A stretch of DNA of 37,375 nucleotides, from the NCBI GenBank assembly GCA_030066775.1, contig JASJAY010000056.1, forward strand, positions 1 to 37,375, read 5' to 3'. The notes beneath the pieces were generated by a model. The model saw nothing but the letters and a program-made list of their open reading frames with translations. It was not told where the DNA came from and made no database searches. This stretch comes from Planctomycetota bacterium (lineage in GTDB: Bacteria > Planctomycetota > PLA2 > JAEUHO01). The position numbers and the translations under genes were made by a program. Positions 18,128 to 35,897 of the stretch are shown here, piece by piece (within the stretch, counting starts at the first letter, position 1; each line of letters opens with the position of its first letter).

Positions 18128-18216
18128 GGGACGGCTGCGCAATGGATGGGACGGCTGCCTCCCATCGCTACGCCCAGGCACGGTCCTTCGGGCCCGCGGC
18201 GGATACCCTCGGGCCC
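18128..18216. repeat. Two pairs of direct repeats in a divergent intergenic region
   Basis: GGGACGGCTGC occurs at 18128-18138 and again at 18148-18158 (period 20). TCGGGCCC occurs at 18188-18195 and 18209-18216 (period 21). Both periods are about two helical turns, so each pair would face one side of the DNA. They lie between the HlyD gene and the monooxygenase/reductase gene. A regulatory role is inferred only. Confidence 0.35.
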
Positions 18217-18264
18217 AAGGTCATCGCCCCGCGTAGCGCGCGGCGGCATGGCAGCGGAGAGCCC

Positions 18265-20586
18265 ATGCGAATCCTCGGCGTCGGCGCGGGACCCGGCAAC
18301 CTCTACTTCAGCATCCTGATGAAGAAGGCCTTCCCGGAGGCCGAGATCCGACTCATGGAGCGCAACTCCCCGGACGCCACCTTCGGCTGGGGCGTGGTGT
18401 TCTCCGACGAGACCCTGGGCCACTTCGAGGTCGCCGATCCGGAGTCGTACGCGCGGATCACCGAGGAGTTCGCGTACTGGACGGACATCGACAACTTCCA
18501 CCAGGACGTCTGCGTCCGCAGCACGGGCCACGGGTTCTGCGGCATGTCGCGCAAGCGGCTGCTGCAGATCTTCCACGCGCGCTGCGAGGAGCTCGGCGTC
18601 GCCATCGAATTCGAGCGCGACGTGGAGGACATCGACGCGGTCAAGGCCGACTGCGACCTCCTGCTGGGCGGCGACGGCGTGAAGAGCCTGATCCGCGACC
18701 AATACGCCGAGACGTTCCAGCCGTCGCTCGACTGGCGTAAGTGCAAGTTCACGTGGCTCGGTACGGACAAGCCGCTCGAGGCGTTCACGTTCATCTTCCG
18801 CGCGAACGAGGCCGGCCTGTTCCAGGTCCACGCCTACCCCTTCGAGCCCAACCTCTCGACGTTCATCGTCGAGTGCCACGAAGACGTCTGGAAGCGCGCC
18901 GGCCTCGACCAGGCGAGCGAAGAGGAGACGATCGCGTACTTCGAGGCGCTCTTCGCCGATCACCTCGAGGGCGGCTATCGCCTGCTGGGCAACAAGAGCA
19001 TCTGGCGCACGTTCCCCACCGTACGCAACGCGTGCTGGCACCACGAGAACGTCGTGCTGCTCGGCGACGCGGCGCACACGGCCCACTTCTCCATCGGCTC
19101 GGGCACGAAGCTGGCCATGGAGGACGCGATCTCCTTGGTCGAGGCGTTCAAGGTCCACGGCACCGACGACGTGCCGAAGGTGCTCGCGGCGTACGAGGCG
19201 AGCCGGCGGCTGGAGGAGATCAAGATCCAGAAGGCCGCGCAGCCGAGCCTCGAGTGGTTCGAGCACACGGCGCGCTACATGGACCAGGACCCGATCCAGT
19301 TCACCTTCAACCTGATGACGCGCTCGAAGCGCATCACGTACGACAACCTGGCCGTTCGCGATCCCGAGTTCATCGAGCGCGTCGCGGCGAACCACGCCGA
19401 GAACCTCGGCATCACCACCACGCCGCCGCCGGCGCCGATGTTCACGCCGTTCACCGCCGGCAACATGGAGCTCGCCAACCGCGTGGTCGTCTCGCCGATG
19501 TGCATGTACTCGGCTGTCGACGGCACGCCGAACGACTGGCACCTCGTCCACCTGGGCGCGCTCGCCGTCGGCGGCGCGGGACTCGTGATCACGGAGATGA
19601 CGAACGTCTCCGCCGAAGGACGGATCACGCACGGCTGCGCAGGCATCTACTCCGACGAGAACGAGGCGGGCTGGAAGCGCGTCGTCGACTTCGTCCACGA
19701 GCAGTCTGCGGCGAAGATCGGCATGCAGCTCGGGCACGCGGGACGCAAGGCCTCCTGCAACCTGCCCTGGGAAGGCGACGACCCGTTGCGGGACGACACC
19801 GCCTGGACCCCGCTGGGCCCCTCGGCCACGCCGTTCGACGCGGACTGGCCCACGCCGCACGAGATGTCGCGCGAGGACATGGATCGCGTGACGGCGGAGT
19901 ACGTCGAGGCGACGCAGCGCGCGGCGCGGGCCGGGTTCGACATGGTCGAGCTGCACATGGCCCACGGCTACCTGCTCTCGACCTTCATCTCGCCCCTCTC
20001 CAATCGTCGTACCGACGACTACGGCGGCTCGCTCGGCAACCGCGCGCGCTTCCCGCTGGAGGTGCTGCGGGCGGTACGCGAGGCGTGGCCGGCGGAGAAG
20101 CCGGTGTTCGTGCGCATCTCGGCCACGGACTGGCTCGACGACGAAGGCGGCCTCACGATCGACGAGTCGGTCGAGCTCGCGCGCATGCTCAAGGCAAACG
20201 GCTGCGCGGTCGTGGACGTCTCGACCGCGGGCAACGTGCCGGAGTCGGCGCCCGAGTACGGGCGGATGTACCAGGTGCCGTTCGCCGAGCGCATCCGCTA
20301 CGAGGCCGAGGTGCCCGTGATGGCCGTCGGGGCCATCCTGGGTGCCGACCACGTGAACACGATCGTGGCCGCCGGTCGTGCGGACCTCTGCGCGCTCGCG
20401 CGTCCGCACCTGATCAACCCGCACCTCACGATGCAGGCCGCGGGCCGCTACTTCGCCGACGACCAGCCGTGGCCTCGGCAGTACCTGCCCGCGCGTCCCA
20501 AGCGCAAGCAGGAGCCGCCCTCGTTCCTGGAGCGGCTCGGTCGCCAAGGGCCGCGCATCCGGCACGCACCGCGGCGCGACGCCTGA
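18265..20586 (+). CDS. Bifunctional flavin monooxygenase / OYE-type reductase (2-aminobenzoyl-CoA or salicylyl-CoA type)
   Basis: The protein is 773 aa from the ATG at 18265 (GGAGA four bases ahead). Residues 1-375 are an FAD monooxygenase: 'GVGAGPGNLYFS' for the ADP-binding loop and 'LLGDAAHTAHFSIGSGTKLAMED' in outline for the GD motif (267-287). Residues 390-735 are an Old Yellow Enzyme domain of the YqjM class: C413 in 'SPMCMYS', 'QLGHAGRKAS' (488-497), and H564/H567/Y569 in 'HMAHGY', matching the YqjM substrate-binding set. This fusion is the architecture of 2-aminobenzoyl-CoA monooxygenase/reductase and of annotated salicylyl-CoA 5-hydroxylases, which hydroxylate and then partly reduce the ring. 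No CoA ligase, thioesterase or beta-oxidation gene is adjacent, so the substrate is open. Confidence 0.9.
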   Translation: MRILGVGAGPGNLYFSILMKKAFPEAEIRLMERNSPDATFGWGVVFSDETLGHFEVADPESYARITEEFAYWTDIDNFHQDVCVRSTGHGFCGMSRKRLLQIFHARCEELGVAIEFERDVEDIDAVKADCDLLLGGDGVKSLIRDQYAETFQPSLDWRKCKFTWLGTDKPLEAFTFIFRANEAGLFQVHAYPFEPNLSTFIVECHEDVWKRAGLDQASEEETIAYFEALFADHLEGGYRLLGNKSIWRTFPTVRNACWHHENVVLLGDAAHTAHFSIGSGTKLAMEDAISLVEAFKVHGTDDVPKVLAAYEASRRLEEIKIQKAAQPSLEWFEHTARYMDQDPIQFTFNLMTRSKRITYDNLAVRDPEFIERVAANHAENLGITTTPPPAPMFTPFTAGNMELANRVVVSPMCMYSAVDGTPNDWHLVHLGALAVGGAGLVITEMTNVSAEGRITHGCAGIYSDENEAGWKRVVDFVHEQSAAKIGMQLGHAGRKASCNLPWEGDDPLRDDTAWTPLGPSATPFDADWPTPHEMSREDMDRVTAEYVEATQRAARAGFDMVELHMAHGYLLSTFISPLSNRRTDDYGGSLGNRARFPLEVLRAVREAWPAEKPVFVRISATDWLDDEGGLTIDESVELARMLKANGCAVVDVSTAGNVPESAPEYGRMYQVPFAERIRYEAEVPVMAVGAILGADHVNTIVAAGRADLCALARPHLINPHLTMQAAGRYFADDQPWPRQYLPARPKRKQEPPSFLERLGRQGPRIRHAPRRDA

Positions 20587-27221: not shown

Positions 27222-28727
27222 TCAGGCGCGACGCCGACGCGCGGCCGACTTGGCGACGAGCTTCACGAGGGCGCGCGGGATGCGCTCGAGCGGCAGCACG
27301 TGTTCCGCCGCCCCGATCTCGAAGGCCACCCGCGGCATGCCGTAGACGAGGGAGGTCTTCTCGTCCTGCGCAATGGTGCTCCCGCCCGCCGCGCGGATCG
27401 CGCCGAGCCCGCGCGCACCGTCCGCGCCCATGCCCGTGAGCAACGCCGCGACACCATGGCGCCCGTAGACCTCGGCCACGCTGTCGAAGAGCACGTCTAC
27501 CGAGGGCCGGTGGTGGTTCACGGGCGGCCCGTCGTCCAGGACGAGGACCGGACCGAGTGCCGAGAGCTCCACGCGCAGGTGCGCGATGCCCGGCGCGATG
27601 AACACCATGCCACGCCGCGGCGCCTCGCCCCCTTCGGCCTCGCGCACCGTGAGGTCGCACTGGCCGTCGAGTCGATCGGCGAAGGAGCGCGTGAACGTGC
27701 CGGGCATGTGCTGGGTCACGAGGATCGGGGGGAAGTCGGAGGGCAAGGCCTGGAGCAGACCGCCGAGTGCCTTGGGACCGCCCGTCGAGGCCCCGAGGGC
27801 CACGCACGCTTGCCCGACGCGCGGGAAGCCGTCCGCCGTCGCGCGGGCGATGGGACGCGCGGGCGCGACCGGCAGGCGTGCGCGGGAAGCCACCTTCACC
27901 TTGCTCACGATCTCGTCGGCGAGGGCAGCGGTGCCCGCCTTCACGTCGACCTTGGGCTTGCAGACGAAGTCGATCGCGCCGAGCTCGAGGGCGCGCATCG
28001 TGGCGCTGCTGCCCTTCTCCGTGAGCGACGAGACCATGATCACCGGCATGGGCCGGATGCGCATGAGCCGCTCGAGGAAGGTCAGCCCGTCCATGCCGGG
28101 CATCTCCACGTCGAGCGTGATCACATCGGGCTTCAGCGACTGGATGCGCTGCCAGGCTCGGTTCGCATCGCGGGCCGTTCCCACGACCTCGATCTCCGGG
28201 TCGGCCGAGAGCATCTGGCTGAGCAGCTCCCGCACGAGCGCCGAGTCGTCCACGACCAGCACGCGCGTGCGGTTGCCGAAGGCGCGCGGCGATGCCTCCG
28301 CGATCGGGGCCGTGGGTCGCGACCGTCGACGTGTCCGCACGTGCTTGCGCAAGACGCGCCTGAGCTTCTGCAGATCGGGCGGCTTGCCGAGCACGGCGGA
28401 GGCGCCGGCGGCCTGTGCGCGCTCGGCGATCTCGTCGTGCTCGAGCCCGGTCAGCATGATCGCGGGCAGCCTCGCCGCGCCGGGCAGCCGACGGATCACC
28501 TTCAAGGCCTCCACGCCGTTCATGTCGGGCATGACCACGTCGAGCAGCACGACGTCCGGCAGCTCCTCCCGGCAAGCGGCGATCGCTTCGGGTCCGCTCG
28601 CGGCCTGACGGCACGCGTAGCCGAGGCGCGCGAGCTGCGCTTCCAGGACCATGCGGTTCACGCGCATGTCGTCCACGATCAGCGCCGTCGGGCGTCGCTT
28701 CCGCGGAGAGCGCGTCGCGCGTGTCAT
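27222..28727 (-). CDS. cheB: CheB-type protein-glutamate methylesterase/deamidase with two receiver domains (REC-REC-CheB)
   Basis: The protein is 501 aa from the ATG at 28727 (GGAGG upstream), about 150 residues longer than E. coli CheB. The first receiver (about 14-130) has D19/D20, acceptor D63 ('LLDVVMPDMNG'), T93 and K115. The second (about 154-275), the normal CheB receiver, has D160/D161, D206 ('TLDVEMPGMDG'), S233 and K257. The methylesterase domain (305-495) keeps the triad S314 ('GASTGG'), H340 ('TQHMPG') and D436 ('TGMGADGA'), with the same spacings as Salmonella CheB S164/H190/D286. It removes methyl groups from, and deamidates, MCP glutamates when phosphorylated by CheA. The extra receiver is complete and potentially phosphorylatable. 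It lies 19 nt after the DxxxQ gene. Confidence 0.95.
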   Translation of the reverse strand: MTRATRSPRKRRPTALIVDDMRVNRMVLEAQLARLGYACRQAASGPEAIAACREELPDVVLLDVVMPDMNGVEALKVIRRLPGAARLPAIMLTGLEHDEIAERAQAAGASAVLGKPPDLQKLRRVLRKHVRTRRRSRPTAPIAEASPRAFGNRTRVLVVDDSALVRELLSQMLSADPEIEVVGTARDANRAWQRIQSLKPDVITLDVEMPGMDGLTFLERLMRIRPMPVIMVSSLTEKGSSATMRALELGAIDFVCKPKVDVKAGTAALADEIVSKVKVASRARLPVAPARPIARATADGFPRVGQACVALGASTGGPKALGGLLQALPSDFPPILVTQHMPGTFTRSFADRLDGQCDLTVREAEGGEAPRRGMVFIAPGIAHLRVELSALGPVLVLDDGPPVNHHRPSVDVLFDSVAEVYGRHGVAALLTGMGADGARGLGAIRAAGGSTIAQDEKTSLVYGMPRVAFEIGAAEHVLPLERIPRALVKLVAKSAARRRRA

Positions 28728-28746: not shown

Positions 28747-29289
28747 CTAGAAGAGCTCGACGGAGCCCGGGTCCATGGATCGCTGCTTGATGCAGCGCTC
28801 GGCGCCCTCGTCGACGTCCTCTCGAACGCGCTCGAGCTCGGCCCGCACCTCCTCCAGCGCACCGACGTGATCGGCGTCTTCCTGCATCTCCTGCACGGAG
28901 CGCAGCACGCTGTCCACGAGCGTCGTGGGCAGCGGCCGGAACCGATCGCAGCGCTGACGCAGCCGCTGGAGCAGCTGCGTGAGCACGTCCTCGAACTGCA
29001 GCGCCGTGAGCGCCGCCGAGGTGCCTGCCTGGGCGACCCCGGTCTCGTCCCCCTCTTCCTCGTCATCCTCCCGGCTGCCGCGCATGACCTCGTAGCCGAT
29101 CTTGGCCTGCGCTTGGAGGATGTGATACGCGGACACGAGCTTGCCGATGGCGTCCTCGACGAGCTCGCGCATCTGCTCGACGTCATCGCGGAAGCTCGCG
29201 TAGTGACGACGGATGGTCTCGACCAGGTCGGTGCCCAGCTGATCCCACTCCGGCGCGCCGGCCTCGTCCCTTGTCTTCAGATCACTCAT
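28747..29289 (-). CDS. Small chemotaxis-operon protein, candidate CheZ-like CheY phosphatase
   Basis: The protein is 180 aa and mostly helical. It starts inside the end of cheR::cheD (8-nt overlap, 29282-29289). The central motif 'ALQFEDVLTQLLQRL' (96-110) contains D101 and Q105, reproducing the D-x3-Q spacing and hydrophobic context of the CheZ active site ('FQDLTGQ', D143/Q147 in E. coli). A disordered acidic patch (70-85) lies before it. The chain ends 'SMDPGSVELF', a short acidic-hydrophobic tail like the CheY-binding C-terminus of CheZ. No CheC, CheX or standard CheZ is in the cluster, which favours a phosphatase role. This is inference: overall similarity to CheZ is low by eye. Confidence 0.6.
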   Translation of the reverse strand: MSDLKTRDEAGAPEWDQLGTDLVETIRRHYASFRDDVEQMRELVEDAIGKLVSAYHILQAQAKIGYEVMRGSREDDEEEGDETGVAQAGTSAALTALQFEDVLTQLLQRLRQRCDRFRPLPTTLVDSVLRSVQEMQEDADHVGALEEVRAELERVREDVDEGAERCIKQRSMDPGSVELF

Positions 29290-30796
29290 GGCTGTCCTCG
29301 AACAGGATGTCGTCGGTCTGCGCCGTGCTCTTGTCGAACATGGTCGTTTCGGGGCTCGCCTTGCCCGCCGCGATCTCGGAGATCTGGCGGAAGTACTCGG
29401 CTTCCACGCTCGCGGTCGCGCGGCGGCGGTCGCTGCCGGCGTCGCGGACGAAGGCGCGTCCCGTATGCGTCTCGAAGCGCACGTCGAGCGGGCGTTCGCC
29501 GCCCAGCTTGTGCGCCACGAGCTCGATCCCCTCGGCCTCCAGGTAGCCGCGGGCAAAGGCCTGGTTGCGCTCGGCGACGGCCCGGCCGCCTGCGAAGTCG
29601 GTCAGCACCGAGGCCGCTCCGAAGAGCTTGGCCTTGAGGCGCCGGCGCTCGCCGCCGCGCTGCATGATCTCGTTGACCAGCGTCTCCATCGCGTGAACGC
29701 CGTACGCCAACGCGCGCCCCGCACCTTCCAGACGGCCCTCGGGCAGCAGGAAGTGGTTCATGCCGCCGATGCGCGCCTTCGGGTCGTAGAGGCACGCCGC
29801 CACGCAGGAGCCGAGCAGCGTGCGCACGACGGCCGGGCGGCCGCTGCAGAACATGCCGCCGGCGTACACGCGCGCCTCGAAGGGACGCTCCTTGAGCTGC
29901 GGTCGCTTGGTCACGGCAGCCGCGTGGCCGCCGGTGCGCCGTTCGAACGTCGTCTGCCCGACCTGCACCAGCTCGGGAACGTCGCCGAGCATGTTCTCGG
30001 AGTGACCGAGAAAGAGCGTGCCGCCCTCGCGCAACGAGCGTGCGAGCCGTCGCACGACCTTCTGCTGCGTCGGCCGATCGAAGTAGATCAGCGTGTTGCG
30101 GCAGAACACGACGTCGAAGGACCCACGGTCCGGCCAGCGGTCCGACGTCAGGTTGTGTTGCTCGAACGCGATCAAGCGCCGTAGTTGCTCGCGCGCCTTC
30201 ACCGTTCCGTCGTGGCGACCGGTGCCGCGCAGGAACCAGGGCTGCCAGCGGTCGACCGGTACGCCGCGGAATCGACCCTGGGGATAGACCCCCTCGGCCG
30301 CCCGCAGCAGCACTTGCGTGTCGATATCCGTGGCCCGGATCAGGGGCTCGCGCCGCTCGCTCGCGGGGAGCATGGAGGCCAGTTCCATGGCGATCGAGTA
30401 CGGCTCCTCTCCCGTCGAGCAGCCGGCGCTCCAGATCCGCGGCGCGCCCTCGCCCGCACGCACGAGTCGATCCAGGACTTCGTCGCGCAGGTGCCGGAAG
30501 TGATGCGACTCGCGGAAGAAGTCGGTCTTGTTCGTGGTGATGCGATTCACCATCTCCTGGAACTCGCCGGCGGGATCCTCGTCGGCGAGCACGAGCTCGA
30601 GATAGCTCTCGAAGTCGGCGCACCCCCGTGCACGCAGGCGCTTGGCGAGCCGCGAGATCAGGAGCTGGCGCTTCGGCGCCCCCAGGAAGATCCCGACCCG
30701 CTCCCGGAGCAGCTCCTGGAACCGCCGGAAGGTCTCGGGACGCAGCTCGGGCATGGAGCTCGAGCGGCGCGGGGTGGTGAGCGGCTTGCCGATCAT
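29282..30796 (-). CDS. CheR::CheD fusion: MCP methyltransferase joined to receptor glutamine deamidase
   Basis: The protein is 504 aa. The start is the ATG at 30796; ATG 30754 is an alternative and neither has a strong ribosome site. CheR spans about 18-288: 'TTNKTDFFRE' (87-96), SAM loop 'SAGCSTGEEPYS' (123-134), 'FCRNTLIYFD' (231-240) and 'GHSENML' (264-270). After a linker of about 20 residues comes CheD (about 304-460): T326 and catalytic C331 in 'TLLGSCVAACLYD', and H348 in 'GGMNHFLLPEG', with the Cys-His spacing of 17 seen in Thermotoga CheD (C27/H44). A 45-residue tail ends '...TDDILFEDSHE'. CheR adds and CheD unmasks methylation sites on the same MCP, so fusion puts both on one chain. 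The frame is continuous with no stop at the junction. Confidence 0.93.
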   Translation of the reverse strand: MIGKPLTTPRRSSSMPELRPETFRRFQELLRERVGIFLGAPKRQLLISRLAKRLRARGCADFESYLELVLADEDPAGEFQEMVNRITTNKTDFFRESHHFRHLRDEVLDRLVRAGEGAPRIWSAGCSTGEEPYSIAMELASMLPASERREPLIRATDIDTQVLLRAAEGVYPQGRFRGVPVDRWQPWFLRGTGRHDGTVKAREQLRRLIAFEQHNLTSDRWPDRGSFDVVFCRNTLIYFDRPTQQKVVRRLARSLREGGTLFLGHSENMLGDVPELVQVGQTTFERRTGGHAAAVTKRPQLKERPFEARVYAGGMFCSGRPAVVRTLLGSCVAACLYDPKARIGGMNHFLLPEGRLEGAGRALAYGVHAMETLVNEIMQRGGERRRLKAKLFGAASVLTDFAGGRAVAERNQAFARGYLEAEGIELVAHKLGGERPLDVRFETHTGRAFVRDAGSDRRRATASVEAEYFRQISEIAAGKASPETTMFDKSTAQTDDILFEDSHE

Positions 30797-30833: not shown

Positions 30834-32504
30834 CTAGAACTCCTCGTAGCCGTCGGTTCCCGTGGGCGCGAGCGGCGTCGAGGTCGACGGCCCGGGCGTG
30901 GGGCTCGGGTGCAGGCTCAGCACGGGAGCGCTGGGCCGACCGCTCTGCGGGATCGACGCTTCGCCGTGCTCGACCTTGAATCGGCTGACGAGCGAGAGCA
31001 GCTGCTGGCTGTTGGCCGCCAGCGACTCCGCGCTGCCCGAGAGCTCCTCCGTCTGTGCGGCGTTGCCCTGCGTCACCCGGTCCGCCTGCATGACGGCCGT
31101 GTTGACGTGGTCGACGCCGATCGACTGCTCCTTGCTCGCGGCCGCGATCTCGCCGACGAGGTCCGTGACCCGCTTGACCGAGTCGACGATCGTCTCGAGG
31201 CTCTCGCCGGACTCGTTGACGAGTCGCGAGCCGTTCTCGACCCGCGAGACGCTGTCCTGGATCAGCTCCTTGATCTCCTTGGCGGCGCTCGCACTGCGCT
31301 GCGCGAGGTTGCGGACCTCGGAGGCGACGACCGCGAACCCGCGGCCCTGCTCTCCGGCCCGCGCCGCCTCGACCGCGGCGTTGAGCGCGAGCAGATTCGT
31401 CTGGAACGCGATCTCGTCGATCGTGCCGATGATCTGCGCGATGCGCTGCGAGGCCTCGTTCGCGCCGTCCATGGCCTCGACGGCCTCCGACACGATCCGT
31501 CCGCCGTGCTCGGCGGTCTCGCGCGAGGCCACGGAGACCTCGTTGGCGCGCTGCGCGCCGTCCGCGTTCTGGCGGATGGCCTCGGCCATCTCCTCGAGGC
31601 TGGCGGCGGCCTCCTCGAGACCCGACGCCTGCTCCTGGGAGCCGCTGCTGATGTCCTGGGCAGCCGCCTGGAGCTGTCCCGCCGTGCCGGCGACGTTCAT
31701 CGCCGCGCCGCGCACCTCCGTGAGCGCGTCGCGCATGCTCCCGAGCGCCGCGTTGAGGGCGTTCGCCATCTGCCCGAGCTCGTCCTTGCGATCGAGCTCC
31801 AGAGAGGACGTGAGGTCGCCTGCCGCGACGTCCTCGAGGACGTCCACGCTCTCGCGCAGCGGCACGGAGATCGAGCGGGCAACGATGTATGCCGCACCGA
31901 ACCCGAGGATCACGGCCGCAGCGATGAATAGGAACATGAACCGCTTCGACTGGTCGTGGATCGCGGCGGCCTGTGCGTCTTCGTGCCGCGCACGCTCCAA
32001 GCGGTGGTCGGTCAGCTCATGGGTGAGGCGATCGAGCTTCTCCTCGCTCTGGATCAGCTTCTTCTCGGCCGCTTGCGCGGCCTCGATGTCATTGGCCGCG
32101 ATCTTGTTCAGCACCTCGTCCGCGAGTCCGAGGAAGAGGGGCATCTCGGCGCGCACCTCCTTCTCTTCCTTGTCGGCGGCTTCCGTGCCGTTGCTCTCGG
32201 CGAGCTGCTCGAGCGAGCGCTGGATCCCGCGGGTGTGCTCCGCGATCTTCGTCCGCATCTCGCTGAGGGTCTCCGGATGCGCCAGCGCGTGCTCGACCCG
32301 GTCGAGCACCTTGAGGACACCGATGTCGACCTCCTGCGCCGCTGCGACGCCGAGCACCTCGTGGTGGTACATCGTGTCGGCGATGTCGCGCATGTCGGAC
32401 ACCTCCGTCACGCCGACCAGGCCGACGGCGATGACGATGACGCACATCAGGGCCGCGGCCAGCATGAGCTTGGCCATCACCCGCATGTCGTGGAGTACCT
32501 GCAT
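30834..32504 (-). CDS. Methyl-accepting chemotaxis protein with C-terminal pentapeptide
   Basis: The protein is 556 aa (AGGAGG ahead of the ATG). TM1 lies at about 11-33, a helical periplasmic domain at 34-188 (four-helix-bundle type, no recognisable PAS or Cache), TM2 at 189-210 and HAMP at 211-264. The cytoplasmic signalling coiled coil runs from 270 to 510, with its hairpin tip '[20 protein letters not shown]' at 364-383. A Pro/Ser/Thr-rich flexible linker (about 513-551) leads to the terminal 'GYEEF', which resembles the NWETF tether of E. coli Tar/Tsr that binds CheR and CheB. It lies 9 nt after cheW and 37 nt before cheR::cheD. The ligand is unknown. Confidence 0.95.
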
Positions 32505-32513
32505 GACTGCCTC

Positions 32514-33005
32514 CTAGGCTGCGCTCGCGGCGTCAGCCAATCCCTCGGATCCGACGATGGCGTCCACGCACAGCGTGAGGACGACGTCGTCGTCGATCGT
32601 GGCCATTCCGGCCAAGTAGCTCTGGTCGATCGTCTCGCCCAGCTCGGGCACCGGACCGATCGCGTCCGATGCGATGTCGAGCACGTCCGCGACGGCGTCG
32701 ACGACGGCGCCTACGACACGGGTCGCCAGCTGGATGAGCACGATGACGGTGAACCGGTCGCGTGCCTTCGTCTCGATGCCGAAGCGCGCGCGCAGGTCCA
32801 TGACGGGGATCACCTGCCCGCGCAGGTTCATGACGCCCAGGACGTAGTCGGCGGCGCCCGGCACCGGGGTCACGTCCGTGTAGCCGCGGATCTCCTTCAC
32901 CGCCTCGACCGGCAGTGCGTACGTGACGTCCTTCAGGGCGAACGTCAGATACTGGCTCGTCTCCGAGGCGGGCGCGGTCGTCGGTACGGAGTCGGGATCG
33001 GACAT
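32514..33005 (-). CDS. cheW: Chemotaxis coupling protein CheW
   Basis: The protein is 163 aa, a single CheW domain at about 17-150: 'QYLTFALKDVTYALPVEAVKEI' in outline, 'YVLGVMNLRGQVIPVMDLRARF' with the conserved Asn-Leu-Arg-Gly turn (60-63), and 'GAVVDAVADVLDI'. It forms the link between MCP tips and the CheA P5 domain. The first 16 residues are Ser/Thr/Pro-rich. The gene begins 9 nt after cheA ends and ends 9 nt before the MCP. Confidence 0.95.
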   Translation of the reverse strand: MSDPDSVPTTAPASETSQYLTFALKDVTYALPVEAVKEIRGYTDVTPVPGAADYVLGVMNLRGQVIPVMDLRARFGIETKARDRFTVIVLIQLATRVVGAVVDAVADVLDIASDAIGPVPELGETIDQSYLAGMATIDDDVVLTLCVDAIVGSEGLADAASAA

Positions 33006-33014
33006 GGTGGCTCC

Positions 33015-35024
33015 TCAGATGCCGCTCGGCGACTCGGACTCGGGTGTGGCCAGCGCCGGCGTGCGTCGCAAGGCGAGGTGGACACGCACCACCCCCGCCA
33101 GGTCGAGAATGAAGGCGATCGACCCGTCGCCCTGGATGCTCCCGCCGAGGATGGCGGGGCTGGTCTTGACGCTCTCGTCGAGGCCCTTGATGACCACGTT
33201 GGTCTGCCCCTCCAGGTCGTCGACGAGCAGACCGAAGCGCTCGCCCTGGACCTCGACCACGACGATGAGCCCCTCCGCGTCGTCGAGCGCGGGCGGATGG
33301 CCCAGCACGTCGCGCATGCGCACCAGGCGCATGACGTCGCCACGGACCGAGACGAGCTCGCCGCGATCGAGCACGGTGGAGAAGTCCTCGCGGGCGGGCT
33401 TGACGACCTCGAGTACCGAGAGCAGCGGCACCACGTAGGTCTGGCGGCCGACCATGAGCGCGAAGCCGTCCAGGATCGCCAGGGTGAGCGGCAGGGTGAC
33501 GCAAACGGTGGTGCCGCGACCGGGCTCCGAGCGCACGTGCAGCGTGCCGCTGAGGTCCTCGATGGCGCTACGCGCCGCGTCCATGCCGACGCCGCGGCCC
33601 GAGACGTCGCTGACGCTCGCGGCCGTGGAGAACCCGGGCTCGAAGATCATCGCGTGCAGCCGGTCGCTGCCGACGGTCTCGTTCGGTCCGACGAGGCCGG
33701 CCGCCCGCGCCTTCTCGAGGATGCGCTGGGTGTCGAGCCCGCGACCGTCGTCGGACAGCTCGATCACGACCGAGCCGTGTTCCTGTCGTGCGGCGAGCTG
33801 GATCGAGCCCGTCGCGGGCTTGCCCGCGGCCTCGCGCGCCTCGGGCGTCTCGAGGCCGTGGTCCATCGCGTTGCGCACGAGATGGGTCAAGGGCCCCGCG
33901 AGGCCCTCGATCACGCCCTTGTCGAGCTCGGTCTCGCCGCCGACGACCTCGAGCTGGACCTGCTTGCCGAGCTCGGCGGCCAGGTCGCGCACGAGACGCG
34001 GGAAGCGGAAGAAGACGGTGGACAGCGGGATCGTCCGCACCGAGAGCGCGCACTGCTGCAGCTCACGCAGGCGCCGCCCCATGCGCTCGATCGACTCGGC
34101 GATCGCTTCGTCCGCCTCGAGCCCGCCGGCGGTCTGCGCCAGGCTCGCCTGCGCGATCACGAGCTCGCCCACGAGGTTGATCATCTCGTCGATGCGCTCG
34201 GTCGCGACGCGCAAGGTGGCCTTCTCGCCGGCGGTGCGGTCGAGACCGGCGCTCTTCTGGATCAGCGCCTCGGCCGTCTCGTCGGCGCTTGACGCGGCCG
34301 GCGCCTTCGCCTCGATGGGTGCGAGGGTGACGTGGCAGGTGTCCTCGACGAACTCGAAGATCTCGCGCACCGCCTCGGGGCCGTCCTCGAGATCGACGAC
34401 ACCGGACCAGGCGAGGTAGCAGCGCTCGGGCTCCAGCGCGTCGAGATCGGGGACACGGCTCACGTCGGCCTCGAGAGACTCGACCTCCGCGACCTCGTAG
34501 AGCTCGCGCAGGAGCGGCAGCGGATCGAGGCCCTCGGTGAGCAGGTTCGGCTCACAGCGGATCTCGAGCGCCATGCGCCCGTCGCCCCTCAGCGTGCCCT
34601 GGTCCTCTCCATGGGACACCTCCGCCGGCGCGTCATCCTGCACGCGTACGTGGGCAGCGAGCTTGTGGACGAGCGGCTCCATGCCGGGCGGGGGTTCCTG
34701 CCCCTCCCGCGCGCGTTGCAGCAGGTCGCCCAGCATGTCGCTCGACGCCAGGAGCAGCTCGATCAGCTCGGCCGAGACGGCGACGCTGCGCTCGCGCATG
34801 TGGTCGAGGAGGTTCTCGAGCACGTGCGTGAACGCCGCCACGTCGTTGACGCCCAGCGTCGAGCTGCAGCCCTTGAGCGAGTGCGCCGCGCGGAACATCT
34901 CCTGGACGGACGCCTTGTCGCTCGGGTCCTTCTCCAGCTGCAGCACGGCCTGCTCGAAGGCCGCGACGTAGTCGCGCGCCTCCTCGAAGAACATGCCGCG
35001 GAACTGGCTGACGTCGATCGGCAC
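33015..35024 (-). CDS. cheA: Chemotaxis histidine kinase CheA
   Basis: The protein is 669 aa from a GTG at 35024, giving VPIDVSQFRGMFFEEAR, a typical CheA N-terminus; GGGGAG lies 12 nt upstream and upstream codons enter cheY. P1/Hpt (1-105) has phosphorylated H48 in 'FRAAHSLKG'. A P2-like CheY/CheB-docking domain lies at about 152-236 and P3 dimerisation at 268-335. The P4 ATP-binding domain (336-512) has N-box 'HLVRNAMDHGLE' (381-392), G1 'DDGRGLD' (425-431) and G2 'GRGVGMD' (476-482). P5/CheW-like is at 514-655. It should pass phosphate to CheY, to the CheB receivers and possibly to the extra CheB receiver. Confidence 0.96.
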   Translation of the reverse strand: MPIDVSQFRGMFFEEARDYVAAFEQAVLQLEKDPSDKASVQEMFRAAHSLKGCSSTLGVNDVAAFTHVLENLLDHMRERSVAVSAELIELLLASSDMLGDLLQRAREGQEPPPGMEPLVHKLAAHVRVQDDAPAEVSHGEDQGTLRGDGRMALEIRCEPNLLTEGLDPLPLLRELYEVAEVESLEADVSRVPDLDALEPERCYLAWSGVVDLEDGPEAVREIFEFVEDTCHVTLAPIEAKAPAASSADETAEALIQKSAGLDRTAGEKATLRVATERIDEMINLVGELVIAQASLAQTAGGLEADEAIAESIERMGRRLRELQQCALSVRTIPLSTVFFRFPRLVRDLAAELGKQVQLEVVGGETELDKGVIEGLAGPLTHLVRNAMDHGLETPEAREAAGKPATGSIQLAARQEHGSVVIELSDDGRGLDTQRILEKARAAGLVGPNETVGSDRLHAMIFEPGFSTAASVSDVSGRGVGMDAARSAIEDLSGTLHVRSEPGRGTTVCVTLPLTLAILDGFALMVGRQTYVVPLLSVLEVVKPAREDFSTVLDRGELVSVRGDVMRLVRMRDVLGHPPALDDAEGLIVVVEVQGERFGLLVDDLEGQTNVVIKGLDESVKTSPAILGGSIQGDGSIAFILDLAGVVRVHLALRRTPALATPESESPSGI

Positions 35025-35041
35025 CTTGGCGCTCGTCTCCC

Positions 35042-35407
35042 CTACGCAACCACGCGGTGGACGACGCGCACGAGGCGCGACGGGTCGAAGGGCTTCACGA
35101 TCCAACCCGTCGCACCCGCCTCCTTGCCCTCGAGCTTGCGGTCGATGCCGCCCTCGGTCGTGAGGATCAGGATCGGCGTGAACCGGTGGACCGGCTGGGA
35201 GCGGACATGTCGGATGAACGTCATGCCGTCCATCACCGGCATGTTGAGGTCGGTGATGATCACGTCGACCTCGCTGCCGTTCAGCTGTTCGAGCGCGTCT
35301 GCGCCGTCGACGCCCTGCATCACCTCGAAGCCCTGCTCCTCGAGCGTGAGCGAGATCATCTGCCGCATGGTGGCGGAGTCGTCCACCACGAGTGCTTTGC
35401 GAGTCAT
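35042..35407 (-). CDS. cheY: Chemotaxis response regulator CheY
   Basis: The protein is 121 aa, a stand-alone receiver: D9/D10, phospho-acceptor D53 ('IITDLNMPVMDG'), T83 and K105 ('VKPFDP'), with W102 where many CheYs have the switch aromatic. Its ATG overlaps the stop of the STAS gene (ATGA, 35404-35407), and its stop is 17 nt before cheA. It should carry CheA's signal to a flagellar motor or to another output; no motor gene is in the window. Confidence 0.95.
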   Translation of the reverse strand: MTRKALVVDDSATMRQMISLTLEEQGFEVMQGVDGADALEQLNGSEVDVIITDLNMPVMDGMTFIRHVRSQPVHRFTPILILTTEGGIDRKLEGKEAGATGWIVKPFDPSRLVRVVHRVVA

Positions 35408-35754
35408 CGGCTGTCCTCCTCCACGGCTCCGGTCGTCGCCGCCTCGACCCCGAGGGGTGCGAGCAACGCGGAGATCGCCAGGAACCGCTGAACGCGTTCC
35501 GGGACGTTCGCCAGCGTGAGCGTTCGCGAGCTGCCGGTGAGCGTTCGACGGAGCGCGAGCAGCACCTGCAGGCCGGCGGTGTCGATGTGCTCGACCCCCC
35601 CGAGATCCACCGTCACGTTGCCGTGCCCGGCCGCCTCCCGGGCGGCCGTGAGCAGCTCATCCGCAACGAGGATCGTGACGTCGCCTTCGAGGGTGAGGAT
35701 GGCCCCCTCCCCCGCACCGCGCGCCACGGTGGCAACGGATCCGTCCTGCCGCAC
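35404..35754 (-). CDS. STAS-domain protein (anti-sigma-factor-antagonist type)
   Basis: The protein is 116 aa from a GTG at 35754, preceded by GGAGG. An in-frame GTG at 35835 would add 27 residues, but those codons (GTT, TTT, GAT, AAA, TGT) are unlike this genome's usage, so I prefer the short form. It is a single STAS domain with 'GNVTVDLGGVEHIDTAGLQVL' in outline; T59, in 'IDTAGL', sits where SpoIIAA-type antagonists are phosphorylated on Ser. No partner kinase is present. STAS genes often sit ahead of cheY-cheA in bacterial chemosensory operons, and the ATGA overlap with cheY argues for a joint role. Confidence 0.85.
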   Translation of the reverse strand: MRQDGSVATVARGAGEGAILTLEGDVTILVADELLTAAREAAGHGNVTVDLGGVEHIDTAGLQVLLALRRTLTGSSRTLTLANVPERVQRFLAISALLAPLGVEAATTGAVEEDSR

Positions 35755-35764
35755 GTGCAGCTCG

Positions 35765-35769
35765 CCTCC
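35765..35769 (-). promoter_or_regulatory. Ribosome binding site deciding the STAS start
   Basis: GGAGG on the minus strand, 10 nt before the GTG at 35754. The longer alternative start at 35835 has no comparable site. Confidence 0.5.
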
Positions 35770-35897
35770 ACAAGTCCGCAGCCCGCTCCCCGCGGCCTGC
35801 ACTGCCGTTTTCGTCGCATCGCGAAACGCAACCACAGCGACGGCCGATCCGATTCACGGGCCGTTCACAGCCGTTAAGGCCAGATGAGCGAGGGGCG

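Follow-up and report, generated by a model that had tools for sequence, protein, structure and literature searches.

The locus described here raises the question of what a protein of 180 residues, encoded between a CheR-CheD fusion and a CheB fusion, does in a chemotaxis (che) operon that has no CheZ, CheC or CheX. The window, by which we mean the whole stretch of 37,375 nucleotides that was analysed, comes from a planctomycete and carries the operon on its minus strand, in the following order.

35404..35835, minus strand: STAS-domain protein, the operon's first gene, as in F7 clusters
35042..35407, minus strand: single-domain CheY with an intact site, presumably the likeliest substrate
33015..35105, minus strand: CheA, listed from an upstream TTG, with the true start probably slightly downstream
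32514..33005, minus strand: CheW
30834..32504, minus strand: MCP, ending in GYEEF, a CheR-type pentapeptide
29282..30796, minus strand: CheR-CheD fusion, whose C-terminus (TDDILFEDSHE) is a divergent form of the tail on McpA-like proteins and CheD
28747..29289, minus strand: stand-alone DxxxQ protein (180 aa), ATG at 29289 and stop at 28747
27222..28727, minus strand: REC-REC-CheB fusion (501 aa), with the phosphorylation-site residues kept in both REC domains

This gene order (STAS-cheY-cheA-cheW-MCP-cheRD-ORF-cheB) agrees with that of F7 clusters, for which an ancestral arrangement of STAS, cheY, cheA, two cheW, aer2, cheR, cheD, cheB, mcpA-like, STAS and serine phosphatase has been described (Ortega et al. 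2020, PMC7184735). In a midpoint-rooted tree, which does not settle the branching order among F7-like CheAs, the window CheA groups with other planctomycete CheAs (support 96/98), of which three belong to operons with a DxxxQ receptor, and both F6 CheAs and those of operons with CheC or CheX lie apart from this clade. The lack of CheC, CheX and a canonical CheZ in the operon, noted when it was first read, was borne out and now extends to the genome as a whole, in which none of the three was found at a completeness of 93.87%; with all of them missing from a genome that is 94% complete, a CheY-P phosphatase role would fit the 180-residue protein. FliM and FlhA were likewise not found in this genome, which carries a full che operon, so that the operon's output is probably not the flagellar switch. 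The extra N-terminal REC of the window CheB may serve as a further substrate or as a sink for phosphate. Elsewhere in the window (18142-20586, plus strand) lies a long ORF resembling an FAD monooxygenase fused to an oxidoreductase of the old-yellow-enzyme type, in the manner of salicylyl-CoA 5-hydroxylase.

Codon-position GC of the DxxxQ ORF (0.76/0.39/0.89) is similar to that of the neighbouring genes, and the ORF is therefore coding. An overlap of 8 nt (ATGAGTGA) joins its start codon to the end of the cheR-cheD frame, as the translational coupling proposed earlier would have it, and the gene to its 3' side begins some 19 nt further on, preceded by GGAGG. Direct reading of the minus strand confirmed the frame, the D101/Q105 pair, the GSVELF C-terminus and the place in the operon; the slot 'between cheD and cheB' also stands, albeit with fusions as neighbours (CheR-CheD and REC-REC-CheB) rather than plain genes. 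The protein has no obvious hydrophobic stretch and no evident transmembrane segment. Annotation offered little: no Pfam family scored above its cut-off, with the matches below it (DUF4611 and others) being to coil or acidic runs, NCBIfam gave no match, a PDB sequence search gave nothing meaningful, and searches with the single sequence returned only coil noise.

Relatives were found by reading the cheR-cheD neighbourhoods of genomes from the same phylum, where soluble MCP-like proteins of about 400 residues match the 180-residue protein in two separate pieces (phmmer, with proteins of loci L037 and L045), the first piece and the junction lying as follows.

29047..29271, minus strand: N-terminal helix (about residues 7-81), with homology to the part of McpA-like proteins that precedes the hairpin
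29032..29046, minus strand: junction, about residues 82-86, the place of the relatives' MCP signalling hairpin, which the window protein lacks

Residues 87-180, in turn, match the region that comes after the relatives' MCP signalling hairpin. Against HMMs of the N and C regions, made from about 38 relatives with the window protein left out, the protein scores 24.6 and 51.2 bits, respectively, where the best of 2000 shuffles reaches 11.2 and 12.1 bits; in the relatives PF00015 sits between both pieces, and the window protein has no match to it. When named genomes were scanned with a pattern, 38 loci emerged, the majority from Chromatiaceae, Thioalkalivibrio and Methylomonas and the others from Planctomycetota and one acidobacterium. 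At the Imhoffiella locus (L087) the order is cheY-cheA-cheW-cheR-cheD-[MCP-DxxxQ]-cheB-STAS-RsbU, such that a family member occupies the slot of the window ORF, and a protein of Vibrio sp. THAF191c (L141), found via CheD and bearing the motif LQFTDIIVQ, corresponds by position to VCA1088.

Because these loci share the published F7 gene order and tail, we take the relatives to be the 'McpA-like' receptors of F7 clusters. On this reading, members of that family (P. aeruginosa McpA/CttP PA0180, V. cholerae VCA1088) have operon context, N and C regions and the LQFxD...Q motif in common with the window protein, and both end in Q..M..G.[IV]ELF with no CheR pentapeptide; the difference is one of size and content, the receptors having about 400 residues with an MCP hairpin and the window protein 180 without it. 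Judged by these matches, the window protein derives from the known McpA-like family and stands alone, the MCP signalling hairpin having been lost. The suggestion of a distinct CheZ branch outside Proteobacteria fails on the same grounds, as the relatives are McpA-like receptors, most of them found in Gammaproteobacteria. Two further leads were discarded: tblastn of plasmids with an McpA-like C region found nothing, and strong PDB profile matches to Tako8 are an artefact, a short LQF.D match repeated eight times.

A second stand-alone DxxxQ protein was found in a gammaproteobacterium (G436; L175:6566-7030, minus strand); it has 155 residues, the motif MQFADMVDQ, the tail GDIELF and no MCP domain, and is not encoded in a che operon. 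No close relative of the window's own stand-alone form was found, no other genome among 17 of the window's class has a match, and the window genome holds no further member. In another locus, a short tail-only ORF (L176:6541-6741, minus strand; DEGEVELF) was observed next to genes for STAS, REC and CheC proteins and may be an McpA-like gene that has decayed within a CheC-bearing operon; a tail-only match in genome G467 was rejected, there being no corresponding gene at the locus.

The motif that gave rise to the phosphatase proposal, and the tail, lie in the C region.

28975..29001, minus strand: LQFEDVLTQ, residues 97-105, the putative active site, with D101 at 28987-28989 and Q105 at 28975-28977
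28750..28785, minus strand: C-terminal tail QRSMDPGSVELF, residues 169-180, with the pattern of McpA-like and CheD tails

That D101 and Q105 have the spacing of CheZ D143/Q147 had been offered as evidence, but alone it carries no weight: a bare D...Q is present in 72.5% of composition-preserving shuffles of the protein, which has a second such pair itself (D35/Q39), whereas Q[FY][EQD]D...Q arises in only 0.1% of them. Nor are the first 38 loci proof of conservation, because the pattern used to find them contained the motif. We therefore turn to a motif-free search, with a profile (A4) built from the sequence that follows the motif, of 229 genomes of Imhoffiella's class (G392), 46 of which carry the McpA-like family; in the 30 loci retrieved the motif was located by a matrix masking D and Q. 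Among these homologues, chosen without the motif, D is present in 30/30 and Q in 29/30, the sole loss of Q being LQSEDVVRR in L178, so that the conservation on which the phosphatase proposal depended is indeed seen. Furthermore, counted from where the hairpin-tip marker begins, the motif starts 99 residues on in 61 of 61 proteins, a constant distance that indicates a motif fixed in place on the receptor's descending helix. In two loci (L061 and L062, from G239 and G195), proteins of 615-634 residues carry LQFHDITRQ mid-protein, followed by another MCP-like stretch, and the L061 protein ends, on direct reading, in DNIELF.

The acidic-hydrophobic tail had been likened to the CheY-binding peptide of CheZ; it is certainly present, but is not specifically CheZ-like, the same tail being common to CheD. 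An [IV]E[LF]F ending is found on CheD in 27 of 29 loci where it stands beside a DxxxQ protein, versus none of the 5 where it stands beside CheC or CheX, and CheD C-termini with G-x-[IV]-E-L-F occur in L085, L087, L091, L100, L106, L117, L121, L141 and others. Nor is the tail confined to the CheD/DxxxQ pair, since 11 loci (several of them short) have a tailed CheD with no DxxxQ protein in view. Orphan Azospirillum CheDs (L142, L144) carry the same tail or a near variant, and in S. meliloti CheD ends in PIEFF and CheT in GDFEAF. Among open-access papers we found no mention of this tail on CheD. The McpA-like C-terminus has been described as strikingly conserved but of unclear role, with a valine at position 2 of the would-be pentapeptide (PMC7184735). 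We rejected a CheR-binding pentapeptide as the explanation of the window tail: the residue at position 2 of SVELF is not aromatic, and the McpA tail reportedly does not bind CheR.

Among loci with CheD, 29 hold a DxxxQ protein only and 5 hold CheC/CheX only, with no instance of both together. CheC and CheX are unrelated to DxxxQ proteins in fold and motif; their operon role, CheY dephosphorylation, is probably the same. The best, that is the nearest, experimentally studied analogue of the window protein appears to be S. meliloti CheT, reported to carry a DXXXQ motif, to resemble CheZ in its AlphaFold model and to accelerate the dephosphorylation of one of the organism's two CheYs (PMC12654446). 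Like the window ORF, CheT is a small free-standing protein whose gene adjoins cheD; the CheT cluster is of class F7 and includes a STAS gene, and the CheT motif (LQGIDLAVQ, as LQxxD[LI]) and tail (GDFEAF) resemble the layout of those in the window protein. The two differ in length (124 against 180 residues) and in that CheT has been studied biochemically whereas the window protein is known here from its sequence; with a score of 2.9 bits for CheT against the family C-region HMM, below the best shuffle of 12.1, homology is not detectable.

In view of the observed McpA-like kinship, the near-invariant D and Q, the constant place of the motif, the tail in common with CheD and the absence of CheZ, CheC, CheX and FliM, we lean, on balance, towards the window protein being the operon's CheY-P phosphatase, where both the catalysis and the substrate are what we infer. 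We suggest that the LQFED...Q helix would dock on a phosphorylated REC domain, with D101 touching the conserved lysine and Q105 placing the attacking water, as in CheZ. The tail may serve to tether the protein to a partner that is also bound by CheD, either CheY or a component of the array, and loss of the hairpin would free the DxxxQ module from its placement in the receptor array. Against a phosphatase stand the 17 of 20 genomes with an McpA-like protein that also have CheZ at another locus, the loss of Q in L178, and a reported association of P. aeruginosa McpA with the array of the F6 system (PMC7184735). In the same paper cheZ is described as confined to F6 clusters.

We rank the phosphatase above a docking role, in which the protein would be a non-catalytic adaptor whose helix and tail bind CheY, CheR, CheA or the array, and which might compete with CheD or recruit it. 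Such a role seems to us rather unlikely; in its favour, the tail is common to CheD in 27/29 operons with a DxxxQ protein, the conserved stretch covers the whole of LQFED..RQ and not D and Q only, and CheT is also reported to bind CheR (PMC12654446), so that DxxxQ proteins may have other roles. However, docking alone leaves unexplained why D and Q are constant while their neighbours vary (LQFTDIIVQ, MQFADMVDQ, LQFHDITRQ), and the P. aeruginosa McpA tail is reported to bind none of four CheR proteins (PMC7184735).

It is improbable that the protein is a non-functional McpA-like remnant left by an internal deletion. It does correspond exactly to the family minus the signalling domain, and is the single such case seen in the window's phylum, but the frame is intact, its start overlaps the upstream stop, its codon-position GC is genome-like, both motif and tail are kept, and an independent stand-alone form with both exists in the gammaproteobacterium described above (L175:6566-7030).

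As for structure, an AF2 model of the window protein was made with 30 C-region homologues, using only C-region rows (N rows being misaligned in the mixed alignment). The predicted monomer has helices at 15-76, 83-134 (with a one-residue break at 118) and 141-167, followed by a disordered tail (pLDDT 78, pTM 0.55); a single-sequence model has a pLDDT of 65. The long helical hairpin anticipated by the sequence-only reading is thus present in the AF2 monomer, albeit such folds are common. Foldseek with both models gave nothing significant. Descent from CheZ, as a true but strongly diverged member, is the least probable of the alternatives and is not supported: both do have D and Q at a four-residue spacing on a long helix, a similar motif layout (QFEDVLTQ, DFQDLTGQ) and an acidic-hydrophobic C-terminal peptide, and hhalign of the family against 17 CheZ sequences superposes the two motifs in its best alignment, but its E value of 0.056 is within that of reversed and column-shuffled controls, the Pfam CheZ model (PF04344) does not match the window protein, CheZ is not among the top Foldseek matches listed, no significant similarity of sequence or fold joins the two, gene context differs, and the strong kinship is instead with chemoreceptors.

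Returning to the phosphatase, we speculate, tentatively and with rather less conviction than for the window protein itself, that DxxxQ may have been the original CheY phosphatase of F7 systems, built into the McpA-like receptor in Gammaproteobacteria and free in the planctomycete and (as CheT) in rhizobia, and that it was lost when enteric F7 took on the flagellar motor and the CheZ of F6; the same tail on CheD might then couple termination and deamidation through one partner.

F7 systems of stages 1-2 have CheY and lack CheZ, and the McpA-like DxxxQ is a candidate for the missing activity. Were this true, a part of the chemoreceptor array itself would be the phosphatase of its response regulator, and the arrival of CheZ in enteric F7 clusters would be a replacement rather than a first acquisition. 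With a free-standing form, a near-invariant motif fixed in position and a tail shared with CheD, the role of the McpA-like C-terminus becomes testable with a few purified proteins.
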